Shown here one piece after another: positions 16,140 to 28,518 of a stretch of DNA of 64,000 nucleotides (position 1 is the stretch's first letter; each line of letters begins with the position of its first letter). Location of the stretch: positions 488,501 to 552,500 of the forward strand of contig NC_014657.1 in assembly GCF_000166335.1 (NCBI RefSeq), written 5' to 3'. Source of the DNA: Caldicellulosiruptor owensensis OL (GTDB lineage: Bacteria > Bacillota > Thermoanaerobacteria > Caldicellulosiruptorales > Caldicellulosiruptoraceae). Position numbers and translations under genes: made by a program. The notes under the pieces were generated by a model. The model was not told the origin of the DNA and did not search any database. It saw only the letters and a list, made by a program, of their open reading frames with translations.

Positions 16140-18095
16140 ATGGAGCTTTCAAAGATTCAAACGCCCAGAAATCCTCTAAAGAGCGGTGTTCAATCTGCAA
16201 CCATTTCAACTCAAAGTCAGGGAGGTGGGCAAGAGCAAATTTCTGCAGGGAGTATTTTTGACTCTTCAAAGAAAAAAGAGCGAAGAGATGAACTCAAGAA
16301 AAACACAATAATCGAAAGGCTTGCTGCGGCCTCAAGCGAAACTCAGGCTGCTGTTGCTCAGGCAACACGTAATGTCAATGAACTTCAGGTTGCAGTACAA
16401 GAGATTGCAGCATCTGCTCAGGAAGCCTCAAAAGCTGCAAATGAATCATTAAAAGCTATTCAGGAGATTGAAAAGGTAGCAAAAGTATCAGATGAAAAAG
16501 CGGTTGAACTTTCAAATTCTATTGGAAATCTTCAAACTCTTATTCAAAATATTTCTGATGAGATTGGAGAAATGATCAGAGGAATAGAACTTGCCGCACA
16601 AACCTCACTTGAGTCGGCAGAAAATGTTTTGCAACTTGAAAAACAGGCAAACGAAATCAGAAGTACTGCGCAAGCTGTTATGGAGGTTGCTGACCAGACA
16701 AATCTTCTTGCACTCAATGCAGCAATTGAGGCTGCAAGAGCGGGCAAACATGGTCGTGGGTTTGCTGTTGTTGCAGATGAAGTAAGAAGCCTTGCAGAAA
16801 TAACAAACAAAGCTGCTATTGAAATTCAAAACATAATAGAAGAAATTCAAAAGGATGTAAACGTTGTGGCAGAAGATATAAGAAGTGTTGGTGAACTTGT
16901 AAGAGGTGAGGCTGAAAAAGCAAAAAGTGTAACAGATGATTTGCAAAAAATAGAAAATGCTATTAATACAATTGTTGAGGCTATGAAAGAAATAAGGGTT
17001 TTGTCAAGAAACATGATGAATGCAGCAAGTGAAGTCAGGGGCGGAAGTCAGCAAATTGCAGCGGCAGCTGAAGAAACAGCAGCGGCAACTGAAGAGTCAA
17101 ATGCCTCATTGATTGAACAGACAAAGGCATTGAATGAGATTAACAACGCGATAACAATGCTTGCGGAAATGGCTGATGAGCTAAGGTCCACGAACATTAC
17201 TCAAAAGAATGCGGAGGAGCTTGCAGCAGCATCTGCTGAGCTTGCAGCTATGGTGGAAGAGTCACACAAAGCAAGTTATCAGATATCCTCGGCATTAGAG
17301 CAGATTATGCAAGCAAGCGAAGAACAGGCAGCAGCTTGTGAAGAGTCTCAAAAGGCAACAGAAAACTTGAAAGAAATGCAAAAAGATATAGTTGATAGAT
17401 TAGAAAATACTACCAAGTTAGCAAAAGAGTTACAAGATATTTTAGAAAAAAATAGAAGAGATGTTGAAGGGTTAATTGAAGGTGTTGCTCAGTCGGTTGA
17501 AAAGAATCGACAGTCATTGGAAAGCGTAAGGGCACTTGAAAAAAGAATTAGAAATATTGAGAAGATAATTGATACAATCTCAAATGTTACAACAAAAGTA
17601 GATTTGTTGTCACTCAATGGTTCAATTGAAGCAGCTCGATCTGGCAAGTATGGAAAAGGATTTGCGGTTGTTGCAGGGGATATAAAACAGCTTGCTCAAC
17701 AGTCAAGTGAAGCGATTGGAAATATAAAGGAAATGGTGAGAAATATTAACGACCAAGTAAGAATTGTGTATGAGGATGTAGAAACTGCTATTAAGACATC
17801 TGCTCAGGAAAATGAAAAAGCGCAAAAAATAACTGTTTCACTTGAAAGAGTAAACCTTGCAACTGAAAAAGTTTTAGCAGAGGGTGGTCAGCTACTCAAG
17901 ATGGCACAGGATGCAGAAGCAGCACTTACACAGATTGCAGCAGGAACCATGCAGATAGCAAGAGGAGCAGAAGAAGCTTCACAAGCAGCTCAAAGTGCGG
18001 CAACCCAAGCACAGGAACAGCTAAAAGCTATCTCCCAGATTGCTCAAGCTACTCAAGAGCTTGCTAATCTTGCAGAAGAATTGAAAAATATTTGA
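16140..18095 (+). CDS. Soluble chemoreceptor with two tandem signalling domains
   Basis: 651 residues, nearly all helical coiled coil rich in Ala, Glu, Gln. No membrane segment and no recognisable ligand domain. Two separate MCP hairpin tips are present. The first (about 183-220) is canonical: [20 protein letters not shown] followed by [16 protein letters not shown]. The second (about 481-520) is a variant: [33 protein letters not shown]. They lie 298-300 residues apart, so the protein looks like two fused receptor signalling domains. Candidate methylation patches rich in E/Q/A flank the first tip (for example [12 protein letters not shown], 308-319). It probably nucleates a cytoplasmic array with the CheW and CheA-like proteins that follow. 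GGGGG lies upstream of the ATG; first gene of an eleven-gene run. Confidence 0.9.
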
Positions 18096-18129
18096 GCGGG
18101 GTAAGTAGAAAAGGGGAGGATTGAGTGAT

Positions 18130-18681
18130 ATGATTGACGAAGAAAGAAAAAGACTTTTGAAAGCAGATATACCTGAAGATTTTGAGGAAGAAGATGAACT
18201 TACCGATGAAAAGCAGCTTGTGATTTTTAAGCTTGGGAACGAAGAGTATGGTGTTGATATAATGCAGGTAAAAGAAATTATTAAAATGACCAATATAACA
18301 AAAATACCACAGGTTCCTTCATTTGTTGAAGGGATAATAAGTCTGCGGGGAGAGATATTACCAATAATTGATATGCGTAAGAAATTTGGTCTTCCAGCAG
18401 TGGAGAAAACAAGACAGACAAGAATACTTGTTATAAACCTTGACAATGTAACAATAGGTGGAATTGTTGATGAAGTTACAGAAGTTTTAAGACTCCCAAA
18501 CGATGCAATAACTCCACCACCACCTGTTATAAGAGGAATTAATACAGAGTACTTACAGGGTGTTGGTCAGATTAATGGAAGAATAATAATTCTTCTTGAT
18601 ATGTCAAAGATACTTACTTCAAATGAAGTGATTCAGATTGAAGAACTGAAGGAGGAACTGTTGAATTCAGATCTGCAATAG
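18130..18681 (+). CDS. cheW: CheW coupling protein
   Basis: 183 residues from ATG 18130, nine bases after GGGGAGGA; the TTG at 18121 abuts that site and is unlikely. The N-terminal 25 residues are very acidic (EDFEEEDELTDE), then comes one CheW domain: QLVIFKLGNEEYGVDIMQVKEI, VEGIISLRGEILPIIDMRKKFG, GGIVDEVTEVLRLP. CheW links receptor tips to the CheA kinase. A second CheW domain in this operon is fused to a phosphotransfer domain (24199). Confidence 0.94.
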   Translation: MIDEERKRLLKADIPEDFEEEDELTDEKQLVIFKLGNEEYGVDIMQVKEIIKMTNITKIPQVPSFVEGIISLRGEILPIIDMRKKFGLPAVEKTRQTRILVINLDNVTIGGIVDEVTEVLRLPNDAITPPPPVIRGINTEYLQGVGQINGRIIILLDMSKILTSNEVIQIEELKEELLNSDLQ

Positions 18682-18715: not shown

Positions 18716-19759
18716 ATGGTAAGAGTTTTAGTAGCAGAAGATTCCCCTTTGATGAGAAGGGTTTTAATAAAAATACTTCAAAAAAGTCCTTTCATAAAAG
18801 TAATAGATTATGCCACAAACGGGCGGGAGGCAATCGAAAAGGTTGTCTCCCTTCGCCCAGATGTTGTTACGATGGATGTTGAAATGCCTGTATTGAATGG
18901 TCTTGATGCACTAAAAACAATAATGCAGACGTGTCCAACACCTGTTGTAATGATATCAACACTTACACAAAAAGGGGCTGAGGTTACTCTAAAAGCTTTA
19001 AGCCTTGGTGCGGTGGATTTTATACCCAAACCTTCTGTTTATTCAACCGATCTTGAAAGTATAGAAAATGAGATTATTCACAAAGTTTTGAATGCGTCAA
19101 AAGCAAATGTGTTTGTTGAAAAAGTTGAAACAGGAGTTGCCAACAGAAATAAAATTACTTCATTTTCCAAAAAACCATTGGTAAGACCAAACGCTATATT
19201 CATTGGTGTTTCAACTGGTGGACCTAAAACTCTGGGCGAAATAATACCATATATAAAAAATGACATTGGAGTACCGATATTTATTGTTCAGCATATGCCG
19301 CCAAACTTTACACGACAACTTGCTTCAACACTTTCAGAAAAAAGTCTTCTGTGTATAAAAGAGGCTGAAAAAGGTGAGATAGTAAAACCAAACACAGTGT
19401 ATATTGCACCGGGTGGCAAACAGATGGAAGTAACACTTTCTGGTGGTAAGACTGTTATAAACATAGTCGACGGTCCAGATGATTTGATATACAAACCTTC
19501 TGTTGATTATGTTGGATTTTCACTTGCTCGGCTTTACAAAGACAGACTACTTGCAATAATGCTGACAGGAATGGGGAACGACGGCGCAAAAGCCTTTGGT
19601 TTTATTAAAAAGCTTGGTGGTTTTATAATAGCAGAGGATCAGTCAACGGCTGTCATATTTGGTATGCCAAAAGCTGTGATAGATCAAGGGATTGCTGATT
19701 TGATTTTACCCTGCACAAGTATTGCGGGGGCTATAAATTCTATCTTTTTAGAAAAATGA
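18716..19759 (+). CDS. cheB: Chemoreceptor glutamate methylesterase
   Basis: 347 residues. N-terminal receiver domain with phospho-acceptor Asp54 (VTMDVEMPVLNG), then a linker and the CheB esterase domain. The catalytic triad segments are present: the serine in FIGVSTGGPKTLG, the histidine in VQHMPPNFT, and the aspartate in LTGMGNDGAKA. It removes methyl groups from receptor glutamates after phosphorylation by the kinase, resetting the array together with CheR (22942). A purine-rich ggagag site precedes the ATG. Confidence 0.96.
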   Translation: MVRVLVAEDSPLMRRVLIKILQKSPFIKVIDYATNGREAIEKVVSLRPDVVTMDVEMPVLNGLDALKTIMQTCPTPVVMISTLTQKGAEVTLKALSLGAVDFIPKPSVYSTDLESIENEIIHKVLNASKANVFVEKVETGVANRNKITSFSKKPLVRPNAIFIGVSTGGPKTLGEIIPYIKNDIGVPIFIVQHMPPNFTRQLASTLSEKSLLCIKEAEKGEIVKPNTVYIAPGGKQMEVTLSGGKTVINIVDGPDDLIYKPSVDYVGFSLARLYKDRLLAIMLTGMGNDGAKAFGFIKKLGGFIIAEDQSTAVIFGMPKAVIDQGIADLILPCTSIAGAINSIFLEK

Positions 19760-19782: not shown

Positions 19783-21423
19783 ATGAACTATGATGAGAAA
19801 AAATTTCTTATGGGGCTTTTAGATGAAGGGAAAAAGATATACAAAATAGAGTTTTTGCTAAAGCCAGAAGCAGAATTTAAATCTCCATCTATGGCAAAAA
19901 TATACAAGGCTTTGAGTGAAAAGTATAACGTGTTTTTAACGATTCCAGATTTAGAACAGGAACATGTAAGTGAAGATATAAGCGAGTATCTGTTTTTTAT
20001 AGAAGGTGAAATTGATATCAATGAATTACGCCAAAATATAGAAAATATTTGTAAAGATGAAGATATTGTAGAAATATTCTTTATCCAAAAATTGCTAAAA
20101 GAAGATTTGGAAATTACAGAAACTGATGAATCAATTCAAAAAGAAAGTCAGGCAAATAGAGAGTATTTTCAAGAAGAAGTTAGAAATTTTACATCAACTG
20201 AGGTTGACCATGAAATAAAGAAGATTGATTCAGTACGAATAGACATAAATAAGTTAAATAATCTTACAAATCTTGCGGGTGAGCTTATTACTTGTAAATC
20301 TCAGTTAAATCAAATACTTAATGCTTTCAAAGAGACAAACATTAAAGATAAACTTCTGACAAACCTGATATCAAACCTTGAAAAAGGAATTTTACGGCTT
20401 GAAAGAATTTCGTTTGAACTTCAAGAAGGTATAACAAGTTTGAGACTTTTGCCTATCAAGAATGTGCTGAGAAAACTTCCTCGAATTGTTCGTGAAGTTG
20501 CACAAAAAGAAGGTAAAGAGGTTGAACTGGTAATAAAAGGTGAGGAGACAGAAATAGACAAAATAATACTTGAGAAGATAACCGACCCTCTGGTGCATCT
20601 GGTGAGAAACTGTGTAAATCATGGAATTGAAAGCCCGGAAGAAAGAGTTGCTAAAGGGAAAAGACCACAGGGGAGAATCGTGATAGAAGCATATGCAGAA
20701 GGTGAGAGTATATATATAAAAGTTTCTGATGATGGAAGAGGTATTGATTTAGAAAAGATAAAAGAAAAAGCTTTGAGGATGGGACTGGTAAAAGAAGAAG
20801 AAATTGAGAAAATGTCAAAAGAACAGATAATGGACTTTATATTTCTTCCCGGTTTTTCTACTGCTGAAAAGGTTGACGATGTAGCGGGCAGAGGCGTCGG
20901 AATGGACGTTGTGAAGAAGAATTTGAGTGAATTAAAAGGTGAAATAAAGGTTAAATCAGAAAAAGATAAGGGAACAAGTTTTTTGATGATAATTCCTCTT
21001 ACTGTTGCGATAATAAAGACTCTGCTGGTTTTAGCAGGGGATAGATTGTATTTGCTTCCTCTTGAAAAAGTGGTTGAGACAGTAAAGATAAGAAAGGAAT
21101 CAATAAAATCTATAACTGGCAAAAAGGTATGCAATGTTAAAGGTGAAATAGTTCCGTTTTTCAGCCTTCAAGAAATATTGGGATATCAAGAAACCGAAAA
21201 AGAAAGAAACTATTATTTTGGTATAATAGTAAGATACAGGGAAAGTAAAGTGGGGATAATTGTGGAAAGACTTATGGGTGAATATGATGTTGTTGTAAAG
21301 CCGCTGGACCAGTTTGTGGGGAATATAAAAGGTATAGTTGGTTCTACTATTTTGGGTGATGGTAAAGTTGTACTTCTGCTTGAACCCGAGCAGTTGATTG
21401 AAAGAATTGTTCAAAAAGCTTAA
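19783..21423 (+). CDS. cheA: CheA-type histidine kinase lacking the P1 phosphotransfer domain
   Basis: 546 residues, shorter than a full CheA. Residues 1-105 form a small alpha/beta domain like the P2-type linker domains of other CheAs; no His-containing P1 helix bundle is present anywhere. Then come the P3 dimerisation helices (about 146-225), the P4 ATPase with N box LVHLVRNCVNHGIE (270-283), G1 DDGRGID (316-322), F box FLPGFST (354-360) and G2 GRGVGMD (369-375), and a CheW-like P5 (about 405-546). The kinase can bind ATP but cannot phosphorylate itself. The missing histidine is supplied by the Hpt-CheW protein of the same operon (24199). R. sphaeroides CheA3/CheA4 is a known precedent for a split kinase. 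Confidence 0.93.
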   Translation: MNYDEKKFLMGLLDEGKKIYKIEFLLKPEAEFKSPSMAKIYKALSEKYNVFLTIPDLEQEHVSEDISEYLFFIEGEIDINELRQNIENICKDEDIVEIFFIQKLLKEDLEITETDESIQKESQANREYFQEEVRNFTSTEVDHEIKKIDSVRIDINKLNNLTNLAGELITCKSQLNQILNAFKETNIKDKLLTNLISNLEKGILRLERISFELQEGITSLRLLPIKNVLRKLPRIVREVAQKEGKEVELVIKGEETEIDKIILEKITDPLVHLVRNCVNHGIESPEERVAKGKRPQGRIVIEAYAEGESIYIKVSDDGRGIDLEKIKEKALRMGLVKEEEIEKMSKEQIMDFIFLPGFSTAEKVDDVAGRGVGMDVVKKNLSELKGEIKVKSEKDKGTSFLMIIPLTVAIIKTLLVLAGDRLYLLPLEKVVETVKIRKESIKSITGKKVCNVKGEIVPFFSLQEILGYQETEKERNYYFGIIVRYRESKVGIIVERLMGEYDVVVKPLDQFVGNIKGIVGSTILGDGKVVLLLEPEQLIERIVQKA

Positions 21424-21451
21424 AAAATTACAAAGGAGTGGACTACGAAGG

Positions 21452-22930
21452 ATGAATTCAGCTAAAGAAATTATTCAAATGCTAAATTCAGGTGACTATC
21501 TTTTGCAAAAAGAAGCAATAGAGAGTGCTCCGAACTTCAAAGAACCTGAAATTGTTGATAGCTTGATAGATCTTTTCATAAAAACAAAAAACAAGATGAT
21601 TGAAGAGCATATAACAGATGCTTTAAAACAGATGGGTGGAAGTTATACCGTTGAAAAGTTGTTAAGACTTTTAAATCATGAAGAAGCAAGAGTGAGAGTG
21701 TTTGCGTTTGAAGTTTTATGTAAGATTGGGAATGATAATATCCAGGCAATAATTAAAGAAGCAGAAAATCCAGATAAGAATGTTAGAAAATTCATAGTAG
21801 ATATTTTAGGTGCTTTGAAGAACAGAGAAGCAGTTAATGTTTTGATTAATAGATTATCAGATGATGATGTGAATGTTGTTCAAGGAGCTGTTGAGGCACT
21901 TGGCAACATTGGTGATGTTGAAGCGCTCAAAAAGGTGATAGAATTTTTACCGTCAGCTCATCTCTGGGTACAATGGACAATAATTGAAAGTATAAAAAAA
22001 GTCAATAGTAAAGAGTTGATTTCAGATGTTTTAAAACTGCCGTGGGAAATAGAAGATATCATCTTTGATAGTATCTTTGATATGGTAAAAGAAAATGGTG
22101 AGCTTGAAAATATAGAAGATGCGATAAATCTATATACCAAGCTTTCAACGCAGTTAAGAGTAAAGATTATGGAAACAATTTATTCCATTTATCTGAGGTC
22201 AGATAAACAAAAGATTGAAAAAATTTTGTCAGACATTAGATTCTTTGATGAAATAAAAGCCATCTTGATGTATGGGAATGATAATCAGAAATTTGAGATT
22301 TTAAAATATCTTGGAAGCATAGAAGACAAAGATTTTATAAGTTTTATAAAAAGCAAAGTATTTGATGAAACGGTTATTTTGAATACTATAAAACTATATT
22401 ATATCAGTGACACTTTTGGGAAAAGAGGGCTTATAAGAGTGTTTAAGTATTTTAACAGGTCAAAACTGGTGGAATATATTAAAGAGATATTCAAGAGCGA
22501 TGATGACATTTTAAAACTCAGCGGTTTGAAGATTATAAGATACAATAATATCAAGGAGGCAGCTGATGTGTTGCCTGAGATGATAAAAGAAGACAATCTT
22601 TTGCCAGAAGTATTGAAAACTGTAATTGAACTTGACCTAAAAGAGTTGTTTGACAGAATTTATGAAGAATATTTTAAAGTTAAAATTGACGATACGAAAC
22701 TTTTGATGCTTGAATGTATGGTTCAGTTAAAGCCAGACGATCAAAGAGTTGTGGCATTAATTAAAGATGAGCTTGCAAATGAATTGTTGTCTGATTCACA
22801 TATTCTCAAACTTTTGCAGTTGATACAAAAGATTGGTAACAAAGAACCGTTCAGAGCACAGCTTGAATATTTAGTTAACCATCCGAATATGGAAATTTCC
22901 ATCGAGGCTCAAGACTTGCTTGGAAGCTAA
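21452..22930 (+). CDS. HEAT-repeat protein of the chemosensory operon
   Basis: 492 residues from ATG 21452, with aaaggag 13 bases and aagg directly upstream. Most of the chain is paired helices of HEAT / PBS-lyase type, clearest at about 60-190: EARVRVFAFEVLCKIGN, KNVRKFIVDILGALKN, VNVVQGAVEALGNIGD, and again near the end. HEAT arrays form curved protein-binding scaffolds. There is no signal peptide or catalytic motif. The place between cheA and cheR suggests a scaffold or adaptor for this array. I know no characterised equivalent. Confidence 0.85.
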   Translation: MNSAKEIIQMLNSGDYLLQKEAIESAPNFKEPEIVDSLIDLFIKTKNKMIEEHITDALKQMGGSYTVEKLLRLLNHEEARVRVFAFEVLCKIGNDNIQAIIKEAENPDKNVRKFIVDILGALKNREAVNVLINRLSDDDVNVVQGAVEALGNIGDVEALKKVIEFLPSAHLWVQWTIIESIKKVNSKELISDVLKLPWEIEDIIFDSIFDMVKENGELENIEDAINLYTKLSTQLRVKIMETIYSIYLRSDKQKIEKILSDIRFFDEIKAILMYGNDNQKFEILKYLGSIEDKDFISFIKSKVFDETVILNTIKLYYISDTFGKRGLIRVFKYFNRSKLVEYIKEIFKSDDDILKLSGLKIIRYNNIKEAADVLPEMIKEDNLLPEVLKTVIELDLKELFDRIYEEYFKVKIDDTKLLMLECMVQLKPDDQRVVALIKDELANELLSDSHILKLLQLIQKIGNKEPFRAQLEYLVNHPNMEISIEAQDLLGS

Positions 22931-22941
22931 GGAGGAACAAA

Positions 22942-23787
22942 ATGCTAACAGAGATTATCTTAAACAATCAGGAATGGTCTCTAATAAGAGATTTTATATA
23001 TAAAACAACAGGTCTGTATTTTTCAGATGATAAAAAAAGTTACATTCAAAAAAGATTAAAGATTGCAATGGATAATTTAGGAATAGCAGATTTTTGGGAA
23101 TATTTAAAGAAAATAGAAATCGACAAAAGTGCTTTTAATAAATTATTAGAACTTATTACAACAAACGAAACATATTTTTTCAGAGACATTCCTCAGCTTG
23201 ATATGTTTTCAAAATACGTTTTACCCGAACTTTTAAACAGGAAAGCAAACAAAGGTAATTTTAGATTAAAAATTTGGAGTGCAGGGTGTTCTACTGGCGA
23301 AGAACCATACACAATTGCTATAATTTTGAAAGAAAGACTTGAGTATTTTGATGATTGGGATATAGAGATACTTGGAACAGATATTTCCGAAAGAGTTTTA
23401 AAACTTGCACAGGATGCTGTTTACATGCCGAGATCATTAAAAGATGTACCAGAGTATATAAAATTAAGATATTTTGAATACAATGCATCTGATAAGATGT
23501 ACAAACTTAAAGAAGAAATAAAACGGATGGTAACATTTAGGTATCTTAATTTATACGATGACAGTAAAATGAAATTAATGAGAAATTTCGATATAATCTT
23601 TTGCAGAAATGTGCTTATTTATTTTGATGAAGAGTCCAGAAAAAGGGTTGTTGAATATTTTTATGATGCGTTAAATCCTGGTGGATATATCTTTTTGGGG
23701 CATTCAGAGAGTATTTTGAGAATCACAAAGGCTTTTGAAATTGTTTATTTTGACAGCAATATTGCATTTAGGAAACCTATGAACTAA
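22942..23787 (+). CDS. cheR: Chemoreceptor glutamate methyltransferase
   Basis: 281 residues. The N-terminal helical CheR domain (about 10-75) is followed by the SAM-dependent methyltransferase fold: TTNETYFFRD, the SAM loop WSAGCSTGEEPYTIAI, LGTDISERVLKLAQ, FCRNVLIYFDEESR and the late PGGYIFLGHSES. It adds methyl groups to receptor glutamates using S-adenosylmethionine. No C-terminal pentapeptide-binding extension is seen. AAGGAGG lies a few bases before the ATG and 11 bases after the HEAT gene stop. Confidence 0.96.
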   Translation: MLTEIILNNQEWSLIRDFIYKTTGLYFSDDKKSYIQKRLKIAMDNLGIADFWEYLKKIEIDKSAFNKLLELITTNETYFFRDIPQLDMFSKYVLPELLNRKANKGNFRLKIWSAGCSTGEEPYTIAIILKERLEYFDDWDIEILGTDISERVLKLAQDAVYMPRSLKDVPEYIKLRYFEYNASDKMYKLKEEIKRMVTFRYLNLYDDSKMKLMRNFDIIFCRNVLIYFDEESRKRVVEYFYDALNPGGYIFLGHSESILRITKAFEIVYFDSNIAFRKPMN

Positions 23788-23812
23788 GAATTTAATGGAG
23801 GGAAGAAAAATT

Positions 23813-24172
23813 ATGCCTAAGATTTTAGTTGTTGATGATTCGCCTGTTGTAAAGAAGATTGTTACCACAACACTTGCAAAAAAAGGGTTTGAAGTAAAAG
23901 AGGCTTTGGATGGTGTTGCTGCACTGGAAGTACTTATTAGTGAGAAGATAGACCTTGTCATTACAGATTTAAATATGCCCAAAATGGATGGATTACAGCT
24001 AACAAGAGAAATAAGAAAAAATCCCACATATAAGAGAATTCCTATTATTATGCTTACAACAAATCCTTCAGAAGAGCAAAAGGCTTTAGAGGCAGGAGCA
24101 AATTTATATTTAAAAAAACCTGTAACAAGTGAGGAGCTAATATCACATGTCCAAAAATTTTTAGGATTGTAA
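23813..24172 (+). CDS. CheY-like single-domain response regulator
   Basis: 119 residues from ATG 23813, ten bases after GGAGGG; the ATG at 23795 lies within that ribosome site. A lone receiver domain with the acidic pocket DD (8-9), phospho-acceptor Asp52 (VITDLNMPKMDG), the Thr of MLTTNPSEE and the Lys of LKKPV. It is a candidate phosphate acceptor from the Hpt-CheW protein. Whether it acts on a flagellar motor cannot be said, since no motor genes are in the window. Confidence 0.93.
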   Translation: MPKILVVDDSPVVKKIVTTTLAKKGFEVKEALDGVAALEVLISEKIDLVITDLNMPKMDGLQLTREIRKNPTYKRIPIIMLTTNPSEEQKALEAGANLYLKKPVTSEELISHVQKFLGL

Positions 24173-24198
24173 CAAGAAACTAAAAAGGTGGGATTACA

Positions 24199-25185
24199 AT
24201 GACAGACCAGCTGTTTAGTACAGCAGAGTTGGAAGAAATAAAAAAAGAGTTTGTTGCTGAGACATACGAGCATCTTGAGAATGCTCAAGATGCTCTTTTG
24301 CAACTTGAAAGTGACCCGAAAAATTATGAAACATTGAATTTCATATTTCGCGAAATCCATTCTATAAAAGGCGGAGCAAACTTTCTTGGTTTGCAGGATA
24401 TCATAAATGTGTCTCATGAGATGGAAAGTTTGCTTGACAAGATGAGAAACTATGAGATATATCCAACAAGTCAGGTTATAAATATCATTTTAGAAGGTAT
24501 AGATATTATTCGAAAGTTAGCAGATAGTATAAACAGTGGAGGTGGACAGGTTTTTGATTATTCGGCATATATAGAAAGATTAAAAGAAATAACAAATTCA
24601 AGTCAATCTTCCCGAGTAGTTTTGGACAAAGAGTCAAATGATAAAAATCCAAACAGGTTTGAATTGGAAAGCAATTTTGACTATTCTCAAAATAGTAATG
24701 TATTAAAAACATTTGATTTAAATGAGATTGACGAAACTACTGATGAAGATTATTATAAAATAATTGTTTCTTTTGAGTATGGAAATGTAGTTTATGGGAT
24801 TGAAGTGGAGTTTGTCCGAGAAATAGTAAAGCCAGCTGATGTAACTCCTATTCCTTTTGCTCCTGAATATGTGATGGGACTTATGAACCTGCGCGGGGAC
24901 GTTGTAACAATTGTTGATTTTGGCAAGCTTTTGGGAGTAGAAGGGAATGATAGTTCCAATCATAAGGTTTTAATAATCGGAGATGAAGATATGACATTTG
25001 GACTTTTTGTTGATAATGTAAAAGAGGTTTTAAGCGTTCTTCCAGACGAGATAAAAGAAGCTAACATAGCATCTGTATCAACAGAAATTTTGGAAGGAGT
25101 AGTAGAGAGGGATGGAGAATTTGTACAGGTGATAGATATAAAGAAGATTTTAGGAAGGGCAAAAAATAATGTGGAGTTGATTTAA
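24199..25185 (+). CDS. Hpt-CheW fusion, the separate phosphotransfer half of a split CheA
   Basis: 328 residues. Residues 1-110 are an Hpt (CheA P1) domain with phospho-acceptor His54 in FREIHSIKGGANFLGL. A low-complexity Ser/Asn/Asp linker (about 130-183) leads to a CheW domain (185-328): KIIVSFEYGNVVYGIEVEFVREI, YVMGLMNLRGDVVTIVDFGK, GLFVDNVKEVLSV. There is no ATPase domain, so it needs a kinase in trans, and the P1-less CheA at 19783 is the obvious partner. The CheW part could hold the histidine inside the array. The stop codon is directly followed by the next start (25186). Confidence 0.93.
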   Translation: MTDQLFSTAELEEIKKEFVAETYEHLENAQDALLQLESDPKNYETLNFIFREIHSIKGGANFLGLQDIINVSHEMESLLDKMRNYEIYPTSQVINIILEGIDIIRKLADSINSGGGQVFDYSAYIERLKEITNSSQSSRVVLDKESNDKNPNRFELESNFDYSQNSNVLKTFDLNEIDETTDEDYYKIIVSFEYGNVVYGIEVEFVREIVKPADVTPIPFAPEYVMGLMNLRGDVVTIVDFGKLLGVEGNDSSNHKVLIIGDEDMTFGLFVDNVKEVLSVLPDEIKEANIASVSTEILEGVVERDGEFVQVIDIKKILGRAKNNVELI

Positions 25186-26187
25186 ATGGCATGGTATATA
25201 TATGCATTTTTCATACTTATGTTAATAGTTATAGTTGCTGAAGGGTTCTTGATTGTCAAAAAGTCTAAAGAAATACAGAATATTATTTATTTTATGGCTA
25301 CAAGAGTGGATGAATCTAAGGTATCTAAGGAATTCATAAATTTGTACAAAAATAGAATACAAATGATAGAAAAACCATTAAAAGATGAGATATATAAACT
25401 TCGAGCAGAAAATGAGAGTTTAAAAGATGAAATAGAAAAAAGCAATTTTAAAAGTTATAGAAATGAGATTTATCAAAGATTTAAAACCTTATTTATGTCA
25501 CTTGGTGAGGTTATGGAAGCATTTAAGATGGTATTGGATGAGATAAATGAAGCTTTGATAAAAAATTTAGAGGATATGAATATTCGGTCAACTACAGTTG
25601 AGAGTGAGTTGGTAAAAGGTAAAAATAAGATTTCTAAATCTGTTGAAGATATAAATCTTATTTTGAACCAGATGCGAGATTTATCAAAGGATGTTCTAAA
25701 TCTTTCAAATCATATTGAGAAGATGGAAAGAGTTGCAGGAATTATTAACGATATTGTAAAAGAAATTTCATTTATTTCTTTGAATGCCCAGATTGAAGCT
25801 AACAAAATGAAAGATTCTTTAACATTCGGTTTACTGGCATCTGAGATGAGAAAACTTGCAGATGGTGGTAAACAAAACCTTAAGGAAATTAGCAAATCAA
25901 TGGCAAATGTTGTAGATGATATAAATGCAAACAATAAAAAGATTGAAAATTTTGTAAACAGGATTGAGGAGTTAGAAAACAGTACACGTGAGATAACAGA
26001 TGAGATTGATTCTCTCAGTAACCTCATAAGTTCGGTACTAAAGTATCAAGAAGAGCTGTATAATCAAATAAAACAGCATTTTGCTGGAATTCAAGAGATT
26101 GTTGGAGTGCTTGAAAATATTCACACTGAAGCTGTTCAGATTGTAGAACAAGAATTTAAGGAAAATAAAAAGTTTGTAAACGTTTAA
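25186..26187 (+). CDS. Membrane-anchored receptor-like protein with degenerate MCP tip
   Basis: 333 residues. One N-terminal membrane helix (about 4-24) with almost nothing outside, then a long coiled coil (60-330). The region at 187-227, INDIVKEISFISLNAQIEANKM...FGLLASEMRKLADGG, aligns with the MCP signalling tip but has lost much of the standard consensus ([26 protein letters not shown]). It starts one base after the Hpt-CheW stop, so the two are probably made together. It may tether the otherwise soluble array to the membrane. Weak similarity makes the MCP assignment probable, not certain. Confidence 0.78.
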   Translation: MAWYIYAFFILMLIVIVAEGFLIVKKSKEIQNIIYFMATRVDESKVSKEFINLYKNRIQMIEKPLKDEIYKLRAENESLKDEIEKSNFKSYRNEIYQRFKTLFMSLGEVMEAFKMVLDEINEALIKNLEDMNIRSTTVESELVKGKNKISKSVEDINLILNQMRDLSKDVLNLSNHIEKMERVAGIINDIVKEISFISLNAQIEANKMKDSLTFGLLASEMRKLADGGKQNLKEISKSMANVVDDINANNKKIENFVNRIEELENSTREITDEIDSLSNLISSVLKYQEELYNQIKQHFAGIQEIVGVLENIHTEAVQIVEQEFKENKKFVNV

Positions 26188-26207: not shown

Positions 26208-26642
26208 ATGAGAAAAATAACCTTTCTGATTGTAGATGATTCACCGGTTTGGAGAAGAATTATAAGAAAATTTGTTGAAGAAAAACTCAAAGGGATAGTA
26301 GTGGCAGAAGCAAGTGACGGTCTTGAAGCTATAAACCTTTACAATAAACTAAAACCTAATGTGGTAACAATGGATATTGAAATGCCCAAATTAGACGGAA
26401 TCAGAGCTATTGAAGAGATATTGAAATATAACAAAGATGCAAAGGTTATAGTTATAAGTTCTAAAGGTGAGGAAGATATTGTCAGGAAAGCTCTTCTAAA
26501 AGGTGCAAGAGATTTTATTATAAAAGATCTGGAAACAGAGAAATGGTTAAAAAAATTTGAGAATGTTATGAAAGAAGATAAGCCCCAAAATACATTACTT
26601 TACAATATCAAACGTTATATAGATAAATTTAAAGGACGCTAA
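26208..26642 (+). CDS. Second CheY-like response regulator
   Basis: 144 residues, one receiver domain: acidic pocket DD (10-11), Asp56 in VTMDIEMPKLDG, IVISSKGEED, and a late FIIKD in place of the usual KP segment. The phospho-site neighbourhood resembles CheB and PatA-type receivers more than the CheY at 23813. The last 30 residues are a basic helical tail. AGAGAGG lies upstream of the ATG. It could be a phosphate sink or the regulator of the PAS-GGDEF-EAL protein that follows 28 bases later. Confidence 0.9.
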   Translation: MRKITFLIVDDSPVWRRIIRKFVEEKLKGIVVAEASDGLEAINLYNKLKPNVVTMDIEMPKLDGIRAIEEILKYNKDAKVIVISSKGEEDIVRKALLKGARDFIIKDLETEKWLKKFENVMKEDKPQNTLLYNIKRYIDKFKGR

Positions 26643-26670: not shown

Positions 26671-28518
26671 ATGAACTTGGGGAAGAAGATATATGGAAAG
26701 ATACAGGGCAGAAAAGTAGAAGATTTTTTAGAAAAGATAGCCAACAATATAAATGATTATGTAATAGTTGTTTGGGCGGGGGATGGAACAATATTAGAAT
26801 TTAAAGAAATTGGCGATAAAATACTCGGGTATTTACCTGAGCAAGTAGAAGGTAAAAAGTGGATTGATGTTTTTATTGATGAAAAAGAGAAAGAGGAAAT
26901 GGAGTGGGTTTACAGAAAATTGCTAAATAATGAACAGGTTAGATATTACGTAAATCCTGTGAAAGATGTAAATGGGATAAAAAAGATATTCTTGTGGTAT
27001 AACTCAAGAATAGAAAGTTCAGAAGATGATGAGAAAGTTTTTCTTTCTATTGGTTTCAGTTTAGATGAGATAGAGAGGTTAAATAAAAAAATTCAAAGAT
27101 ATGAAAGAGAGTTTAGTAAGATAAATGAGCAAAGTGAAAGTCTGAAGTTCAAGATATCCAAACAGGATCTTGTTTTGAAGCAAAAAGATGAAATAATAAA
27201 GGATTACAAAAGTAAAATTGAATTTTTGGCTTTTTTTGATGAACTTACAAAACTGCCAAATAAAAATTCACTTATAAGATGGTTAAATTTAAGAGTTAGC
27301 AATGTTGAAAAAGGCAATATTTATTTGATCTTTTTAGAGTTAAGAAATTTAGAAAAATTAAATGTTATGTATGGATATGATATTGTAGACGAATTAATTG
27401 TTCAAATAAGTAGGAAACTTGAAGATATATTAAGCAAAGAAGACAAATTATTCAAGATAGGTTTTGATCGATTTGCTATAATATGCAAAATTGAAAGTAT
27501 TTCTGAGTATATCAAAAATCTGTTGGCTAAATTAGCAGTTGTATATAATATTAACGGCAATTTAATAAGAGTGAATTACAACATAGGAGCAACTCTAATT
27601 GACGATACAAATGACTCTACAACATCCATTTTAAGAAAATGTGATTTGGCTTTGATAAAATCAAAAGAAAAAGGATTAAATGAGTATGAGATATTTAAAC
27701 CTTCTCTGGAGGTCCAAACATTAAAGGAAGGAATAATTGAAAAAGAACTTCGAAATGGAATAGATTTAAATGAATTTATATTACTTTATCAGCCAATAAT
27801 AAATCTGTGCAACGGACAAATTTATGGACTTGAAGTTCTTCTAAGGTGGCATTATTTGAAATCGGTATATATATCACCATTAGAATTTATCCCAATTGCT
27901 GAAAAGTGTGGCTTGATTGTAGATTTGGGAAAGATTGTGTTGAAACAGTCTGTCGAATCAGCTAAAGTATTTAATAGTTATTTCAATGAAGAATTTGTGA
28001 TTTCAGTTAATATTTCGCCGCGACAATTTGTTGATAAAGAATTTATAACCTCAACAATAGAGATATTAGAAAATGAAAAAATTAAGAATCTCAAATTGCA
28101 ATTTGAAATTACAGAAAAGGTAGCAATTGAAAATATTAACTATACTATTGAGGTGATAAACCAACTAAAAAATTACGGTATAACATTTGCCTTGGATGAT
28201 TTTGGGGTGGATTATTCTTCACTGAATTATTTAAGAAAATTGCCTATTGAAGCTGTTAAAATAGATAAGTCCTTTGTACAAGAGACTGAAAATGAGGAGA
28301 CATATTTTGTGGTAGAAACAATAATAAGACTTTGCAAAAAATTAGGGTTGAAAATTGTGGGAGAGGGTGTAGAAACAGAAAATCAATACAAAATATTAAA
28401 CCAGCTTGGATGTGACTACGTTCAAGGATACTTTATAAGTAAGCCATTGTCTTTTGAAGAAATTTTAATAAAATTACAAAATAAAGAAATTTTCAGAGGC
28501 ACCGATGTGGTAAAATAA
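26671..28518 (+). CDS. PAS-GGDEF-EAL protein with decayed GGDEF
   Basis: 615 residues, last gene of the operon. A PAS-like domain (about 20-130), a coiled coil (133-182), a GGDEF-fold domain (about 184-343) and an EAL domain (about 352-605). The cyclase motif is lost: FKIGFDRFAI stands where GGDEF should be. EAL residues are kept: E388 in the altered motif EVL, N447 (NISPRQF), E479 (FEITE), D509/D510 (DDFG), K530 (VKID), E565 (GEGVE) and QGYFISKP. It is therefore probably a cyclic-di-GMP phosphodiesterase, with the GGDEF relic perhaps sensing GTP. No membrane helix. Its place suggests that it is an output of the chemosensory array. Confidence 0.92.
   Translation: MNLGKKIYGKIQGRKVEDFLEKIANNINDYVIVVWAGDGTILEFKEIGDKILGYLPEQVEGKKWIDVFIDEKEKEEMEWVYRKLLNNEQVRYYVNPVKDVNGIKKIFLWYNSRIESSEDDEKVFLSIGFSLDEIERLNKKIQRYEREFSKINEQSESLKFKISKQDLVLKQKDEIIKDYKSKIEFLAFFDELTKLPNKNSLIRWLNLRVSNVEKGNIYLIFLELRNLEKLNVMYGYDIVDELIVQISRKLEDILSKEDKLFKIGFDRFAIICKIESISEYIKNLLAKLAVVYNINGNLIRVNYNIGATLIDDTNDSTTSILRKCDLALIKSKEKGLNEYEIFKPSLEVQTLKEGIIEKELRNGIDLNEFILLYQPIINLCNGQIYGLEVLLRWHYLKSVYISPLEFIPIAEKCGLIVDLGKIVLKQSVESAKVFNSYFNEEFVISVNISPRQFVDKEFITSTIEILENEKIKNLKLQFEITEKVAIENINYTIEVINQLKNYGITFALDDFGVDYSSLNYLRKLPIEAVKIDKSFVQETENEETYFVVETIIRLCKKLGLKIVGEGVETENQYKILNQLGCDYVQGYFISKPLSFEEILIKLQNKEIFRGTDVVK

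Follow-up and report, generated by a model that had tools for sequence, protein, structure and literature searches.

Does this locus of Caldicellulosiruptor owensensis OL encode one CheA kinase as two proteins? The window analyzed here, a stretch of 64,000 nucleotides (contig NC_014657.1, positions 488,501 to 552,500, forward strand), holds a CheA-like gene at 19783 and an Hpt-CheW gene at 24199, and an earlier note had proposed that these are the separately encoded halves of a single kinase. This proposal is well supported by the domains and key residues of the two proteins, their operon, their co-inheritance, and the selection acting on them. The coordinates and reading frames first given for the two genes were confirmed. 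All positions are those of the window unless another locus is named.

The gene cluster

Eleven genes lie on the + strand between 16140 and 28518, with intergenic gaps of at most 34 bp. This close packing suggests one operon. Promoter and terminator scans of the cluster gave counts only modestly above those of shuffled sequence. The encoded proteins are, in order:

16140..18095, +, soluble MCP-like receptor without a transmembrane helix, carrying two tandem signalling hairpin tips (Pfam MCPsignal, two stretches)
18121..18681, +, CheW adaptor (Pfam CheW, 3e-41)
18716..19759, +, CheB, receiver plus methylesterase (domain search)
19783..21423, +, CheA kinase half with a predicted P2 (about residues 12–100), P3, P4, and P5, without P1 (Pfam; P2 by model and Foldseek match to 1u0s_A)
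21398..22930, +, HEAT-repeat protein (Pfam HEAT_2; also in the intact operons of five sister genomes)
22942..23787, +, CheR methyltransferase (domain search)
23795..24172, +, CheY-like single-domain response regulator (domain search)
24199..25185, +, substrate half Hpt-CheW with P1/Hpt (residues 14–112, His54), a linker of ~75 aa, and an adaptor-type CheW domain (residues 188–320)
25186..26187, +, small membrane-anchored MCP-like protein, or mini-MCP (MCPsignal; KD19 2.68 at residue 5)
26208..26642, +, second CheY-like response regulator (domain search)
26671..28518, +, GGDEF-EAL protein, candidate output (Pfam EAL 4e-68, GGDEF 2e-22)

The genes for the kinase half and Hpt-CheW are separated by 2.8 kb that contains the HEAT, cheR, and cheY genes, and the mini-MCP gene begins at the base directly 3' of the Hpt-CheW stop codon. 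The real start of the HEAT-repeat protein is probably slightly 3' of 21398. The two hairpin halves of the soluble receptor are 28% identical over 278 aa (maximum KD19 0.71), and the protein resembles a receptor dimer whose subunits were fused into one chain. A similar receptor of 633 aa is encoded in the cluster of the 609-aa CheA of the same genome (L016 14575–16473).

Domains of the two halves

Pfam assigns H-kinase_dim (150–219), HATPase_c (268–407), and CheW/P5 (413–541) to the 546-aa kinase half and finds no Hpt/P1 in it. The best solved relatives are the P3–P5 regions of Thermotoga maritima and Escherichia coli CheA, with matches from residue ~150 on. Residues of the N, G1, F/G2, and G3 boxes agree with those of 55 other CheAs, save N279 and A368. 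The latter is Ser in all 55, and also Ser in one sister species. N279 lies in the N box (20617–20619); all six split kinases have Asn here, and all 55 other CheAs have Asp or Gly.

The kinase half aligns with complete CheAs from its residue 12–16, which is just past their P1. A profile built together with the P2 domains of complete CheAs, which lend it strength, matches 1u0s, a P2 structure from T. maritima, at 4e-19. Residues ~12–100 were modeled by AlphaFold with a pLDDT of 86.5, from an alignment that also took in the P2s of complete CheAs. The best PDB match to this model is a CheA P2, 1u0s_A (Foldseek E 8e-6, TM 0.82 on the target); the matches ranked below it are generic ferredoxin-like folds with clearly weaker scores. 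Based on the alignment, the profile match, and the model, the kinase half is read as P2-P3-P4-P5, with residues ~12–100 predicted to form P2, the CheY-docking domain. A P1 concealed in the N-terminus was considered and rejected, as Pfam, alignment, and the model with its Foldseek match identify this region as P2. The domain content first reported for this protein, P3, P4 with its ATP boxes, and P5 without P1, was right as far as it went; as a complete list it fell short by omitting P2.

The companion protein also has the domains first ascribed to it, a P1 with His54 and a CheW domain, and Pfam finds no ATPase domain in its 328 aa (Hpt 14–87, CheW 190–320). His54 aligns with His45 of T. maritima CheA, and K57, H73, and E76 align with K48, H64, and E67 of that protein. 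Its P1 is nearer to T. maritima CheA (7e-21) than to Rhodobacter sphaeroides CheA3 (1e-4). Both the P1 and CheW folds are recovered in a structural model (Z 17–19 against P1 and CheW structures) whose overall confidence is low (60.2). Confidence is low in the CheW part of the full-length model, and the linker has low pLDDT and is fast evolving. A tree was constructed from 43 CheW-type domains, including 18 CheA P5 domains and leaving out R. sphaeroides CheA3. In this tree, the C-terminal domain of Hpt-CheW falls among the CheW adaptors and is separated from 18 of 18 P5 domains (support 100/99), and for this reason the protein is better read as a fusion of P1 with an adaptor than as a CheA remnant without its middle.

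Selection, inheritance, and origin

Selection was compared using omega, for which the values cover only pairs with estimable dS, several comparisons having saturated dS. Omega is 0.10 for P2 and 0.05–0.10 for P3–P5 of the kinase half in comparisons across the genus. For Hpt-CheW, it is 0.065 for P1, which among pairs with measurable dS is the most conserved region of the protein, and 0.12–0.17 for the CheW domain. Linkers have values of 0.26–0.50, compared to 0.05–0.17 for folded domains. By these ratios, both proteins are under purifying selection, and their conservation in six species speaks against a chance arrangement. His54, its P1 partner residues, and the ATP boxes show little or no variation.

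Two alternative explanations can be weighed against these values. The kinase half might be a decayed CheA that lost its P1 by mutation and is no longer functional, as the missing P1 and the two unusual residues could suggest. However, the ATP boxes are intact, P3–P5 are constrained across the genus, and the P1 and P2–P5 ends are clean domain borders, and we consider decay extremely unlikely. Alternatively, Hpt-CheW may act mainly as a phosphate sink or as an array-spacing scaffold that competes with CheW, and not as a substrate feeding an output. It does have an adaptor-type CheW domain, and Treponema rings require a CheW-CheR-like scaffold (PMC7666581). Such a role would leave the kinase half with no cognate substrate, as the operon encodes P1 nowhere else, and it does not fit well with P1 being the most conserved part of the protein. 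We regard it as very unlikely.

Both halves are present in 6 of 12 genomes of the genus. The other five of these six have kinase halves that are 77–84% identical, and Hpt-CheW proteins that are 59–70% identical, to those of C. owensensis. Neither half occurs in five further genomes, which have a clean empty site where the flanking ProRS and phosphoribosyltransferase genes are 0.84–0.87 kb apart. The kinase half is gone from one genome (G003) in an IS110-associated deletion. The region from residue 250 of the MCP to residue 64 of CheY, about 7 kb in C. owensensis, is replaced there by a stretch with a transposase ORF (L047 11128–13059), which we take from its sequence to be of the IS110 type. 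In this genome, Hpt-CheW has survived the loss of the kinase half as an open frame that is 94% identical. Within the genus (n = 12), the che operon behaves as a unit that is either present or absent at a single site.

Between G000 and G003, omega for Hpt-CheW is 0.30, which relative to complete CheAs is suggestive of relaxed selection but not significant (Fisher P = 0.13). In the same pair, dS is 0.07–0.09 over Hpt-CheW and the mini-MCP (24199–26187) and 0.35–0.74 in neighboring operon genes. This far lower dS suggests a recent recombination tract over the two genes.

The genome encodes four HATPase-bearing CheAs, the kinase half and three complete proteins with their own P1. One complete CheA (675 aa, P1–P5) is within a flagellar cluster that presumably holds FlhA, FlhB, FlhF, CheC, and CheD. 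The second has 633 aa and P1–P5. The third has 609 aa and its own P1; P2 was not found in it. Hpt-CheW is the sole free-standing Hpt of the genome, and the other three Hpts are parts of the complete CheAs. The earlier note had asked for a genome search for any other cheA, and nothing marks one of these three as the sole kinase of the split-CheA array. Another che cluster of the genome encodes a 478-aa protein with three fused CheW domains (L016 13120–14553).

The three complete CheAs could serve the kinase half as a source of P1, or could themselves phosphorylate Hpt-CheW. Hpt-CheW may be a cross-talk hub that is phosphorylated by the complete CheAs, with the kinase half phosphorylating their P1s, so that the pair is not exclusive. 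Their presence in the genome agrees with this explanation, as do the retention of Hpt-CheW without the kinase half in G003 and a genome from another family of the phylum (G150), in which Hpt-CheW adjoins a complete CheA. However, in 11 of the 12 genomes the halves are jointly present or jointly absent at a single site, and the sole exception is an IS-associated deletion. We therefore consider the cross-talk hub unlikely.

We searched 398 genomes of the phylum for Hpt-CheW, scoring the best few candidates per genome, and at E ≤ 1e-25 it was identified only in the genus and in G150. Two other matches at this threshold were rejected because their frames have the length of a complete CheA. No further intact short P1-less kinase was among the matches listed. 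A scan of named genomes with the Hpt-CheW alignment gave a single CheW match only. A match on an Agrobacterium vitis plasmid was rejected as a split pair, as it is a triple-CheW protein (473 aa; L094 6392–7813) adjoining a complete CheA. Trees of P1 and of P3–P5 were constructed to tell apart fission and recruitment. In both, the split clade has a long branch close to the 609-aa CheA of the genome and to G223, and with branches of this length the placement favors neither origin. In G150, Hpt-CheW and the complete CheA share an operon (L057 12374–17963), possibly as an intermediate or through an independent origin by P1 duplication.

A probable bipartite CheA and its known relatives

The kinase half and Hpt-CheW are likely to form a bipartite CheA, one array kinase made as two proteins, in which His54 is phosphorylated in trans within a shared array and output passes through the CheYs and CheB. 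The kinase half would dimerize, bind ATP, and enter the receptor array via P5, and Hpt-CheW would join the same array via its CheW domain. Because the CheW domain would seat it there, the flexibly tethered P1 would be within reach of P4. Under receptor control, P4 would phosphorylate His54 in trans, and the phosphoryl group would pass to CheB and the CheY-like proteins of the operon, docked on P2 of the kinase half, and from there probably to the GGDEF-EAL output. Trans-phosphorylation is plausible because of two precedents. E. coli P1 remains able to signal after its release from CheA (Garzon and Parkinson 1996, cited in PMC10782961), and in R. sphaeroides, CheA3 is phosphorylated in trans by CheA4 (PMC6829392).

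A more specific form of this reading is that the CheA substrate has shifted to the coupling protein. An adaptor-type CheW would bring P1 to the array and the kinase would retain P2 as the docking site, so that phosphotransfer is set independently of array occupancy. The mini-receptor and the tandem soluble receptor would then recruit the halves separately. We offer this as a tentative possibility that is somewhat doubtful.

A split pair would let one vary the occupancy of the substrate in a chemosensory array separately from the activity of the kinase. It is also a natural two-part form of a kinase that is usually one chain, and the proteins, being from a thermophile, should purify well.

Split CheAs are known from other systems. 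The pair described here has the features of one, a kinase protein with P3, P4, and P5 and without P1, and a P1 with a phosphorylatable His on a separate gene of the same operon; it does not have the P1–P5 in one chain of the classical five-domain CheA. R. sphaeroides (Cereibacter) CheA3 and CheA4 had correctly been named as the proteobacterial precedent. As in that pair, a P1 protein without active kinase and a P1-less kinase share one operon; trans-phosphorylation is established there, and we infer it here. In CheA3, a middle region of 794 residues contains degenerate P2/P3/P4 and has CheY6 phosphatase activity; CheA4 is without P2 (PMC10782961, PMC6829392). In contrast, the kinase half here carries a predicted P2 and is not limited to P3-P4-P5. 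The P1 half ends in an adaptor-type CheW and not in a CheA-type P5, in a tree from which CheA3 was absent, and its linker has ~75 aa in place of the 794-residue middle with phosphatase activity.

The G150 system is similar in having a protein of Hpt and CheW (299 aa, L057 12374–13270) in a che operon. It differs in that a complete CheA of 1009 aa is encoded in the same operon; this CheA has a P1 of its own, to which the P1 of the G150 Hpt-CheW is most closely related (69%).

A further claim, that no case had been described in Firmicutes, was wrong, because Hamer et al. 2010 (PMC2829493) name proteins of both types from the genus. From Caldicellulosiruptor saccharolyticus they list a CheA4-type, P1-less P3-P4-P5 kinase, and from both this species and Anaerocellum thermophilum a short-linker P1-P5-type protein. 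These proteins almost certainly belong to the same two families as Hpt-CheW and the kinase half. One sister genome, G009, has both halves. The proteins are listed singly in that paper, whose available text does not mention a shared operon, P2, or an adaptor-type CheW domain. Bipartite CheAs are a known class in Berry et al. 2023, whose accessible sections describe the Hpt as encoded apart in the same operon, as it is here. They differ from the present pair in that the Hpt is described as a separate gene, and in those sections as joined to a CheW domain only in CheA3.

The CheA split recurs outside proteobacteria with a different domain arrangement, and the idea itself is not new. Relative to the available text of both papers, the additions are that the halves form one operon unit, that the kinase half appears to keep P2, and that the P1 carrier is of the adaptor type. 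With these three features, the split kinase departs modestly from a known theme and is not a new kind of system.
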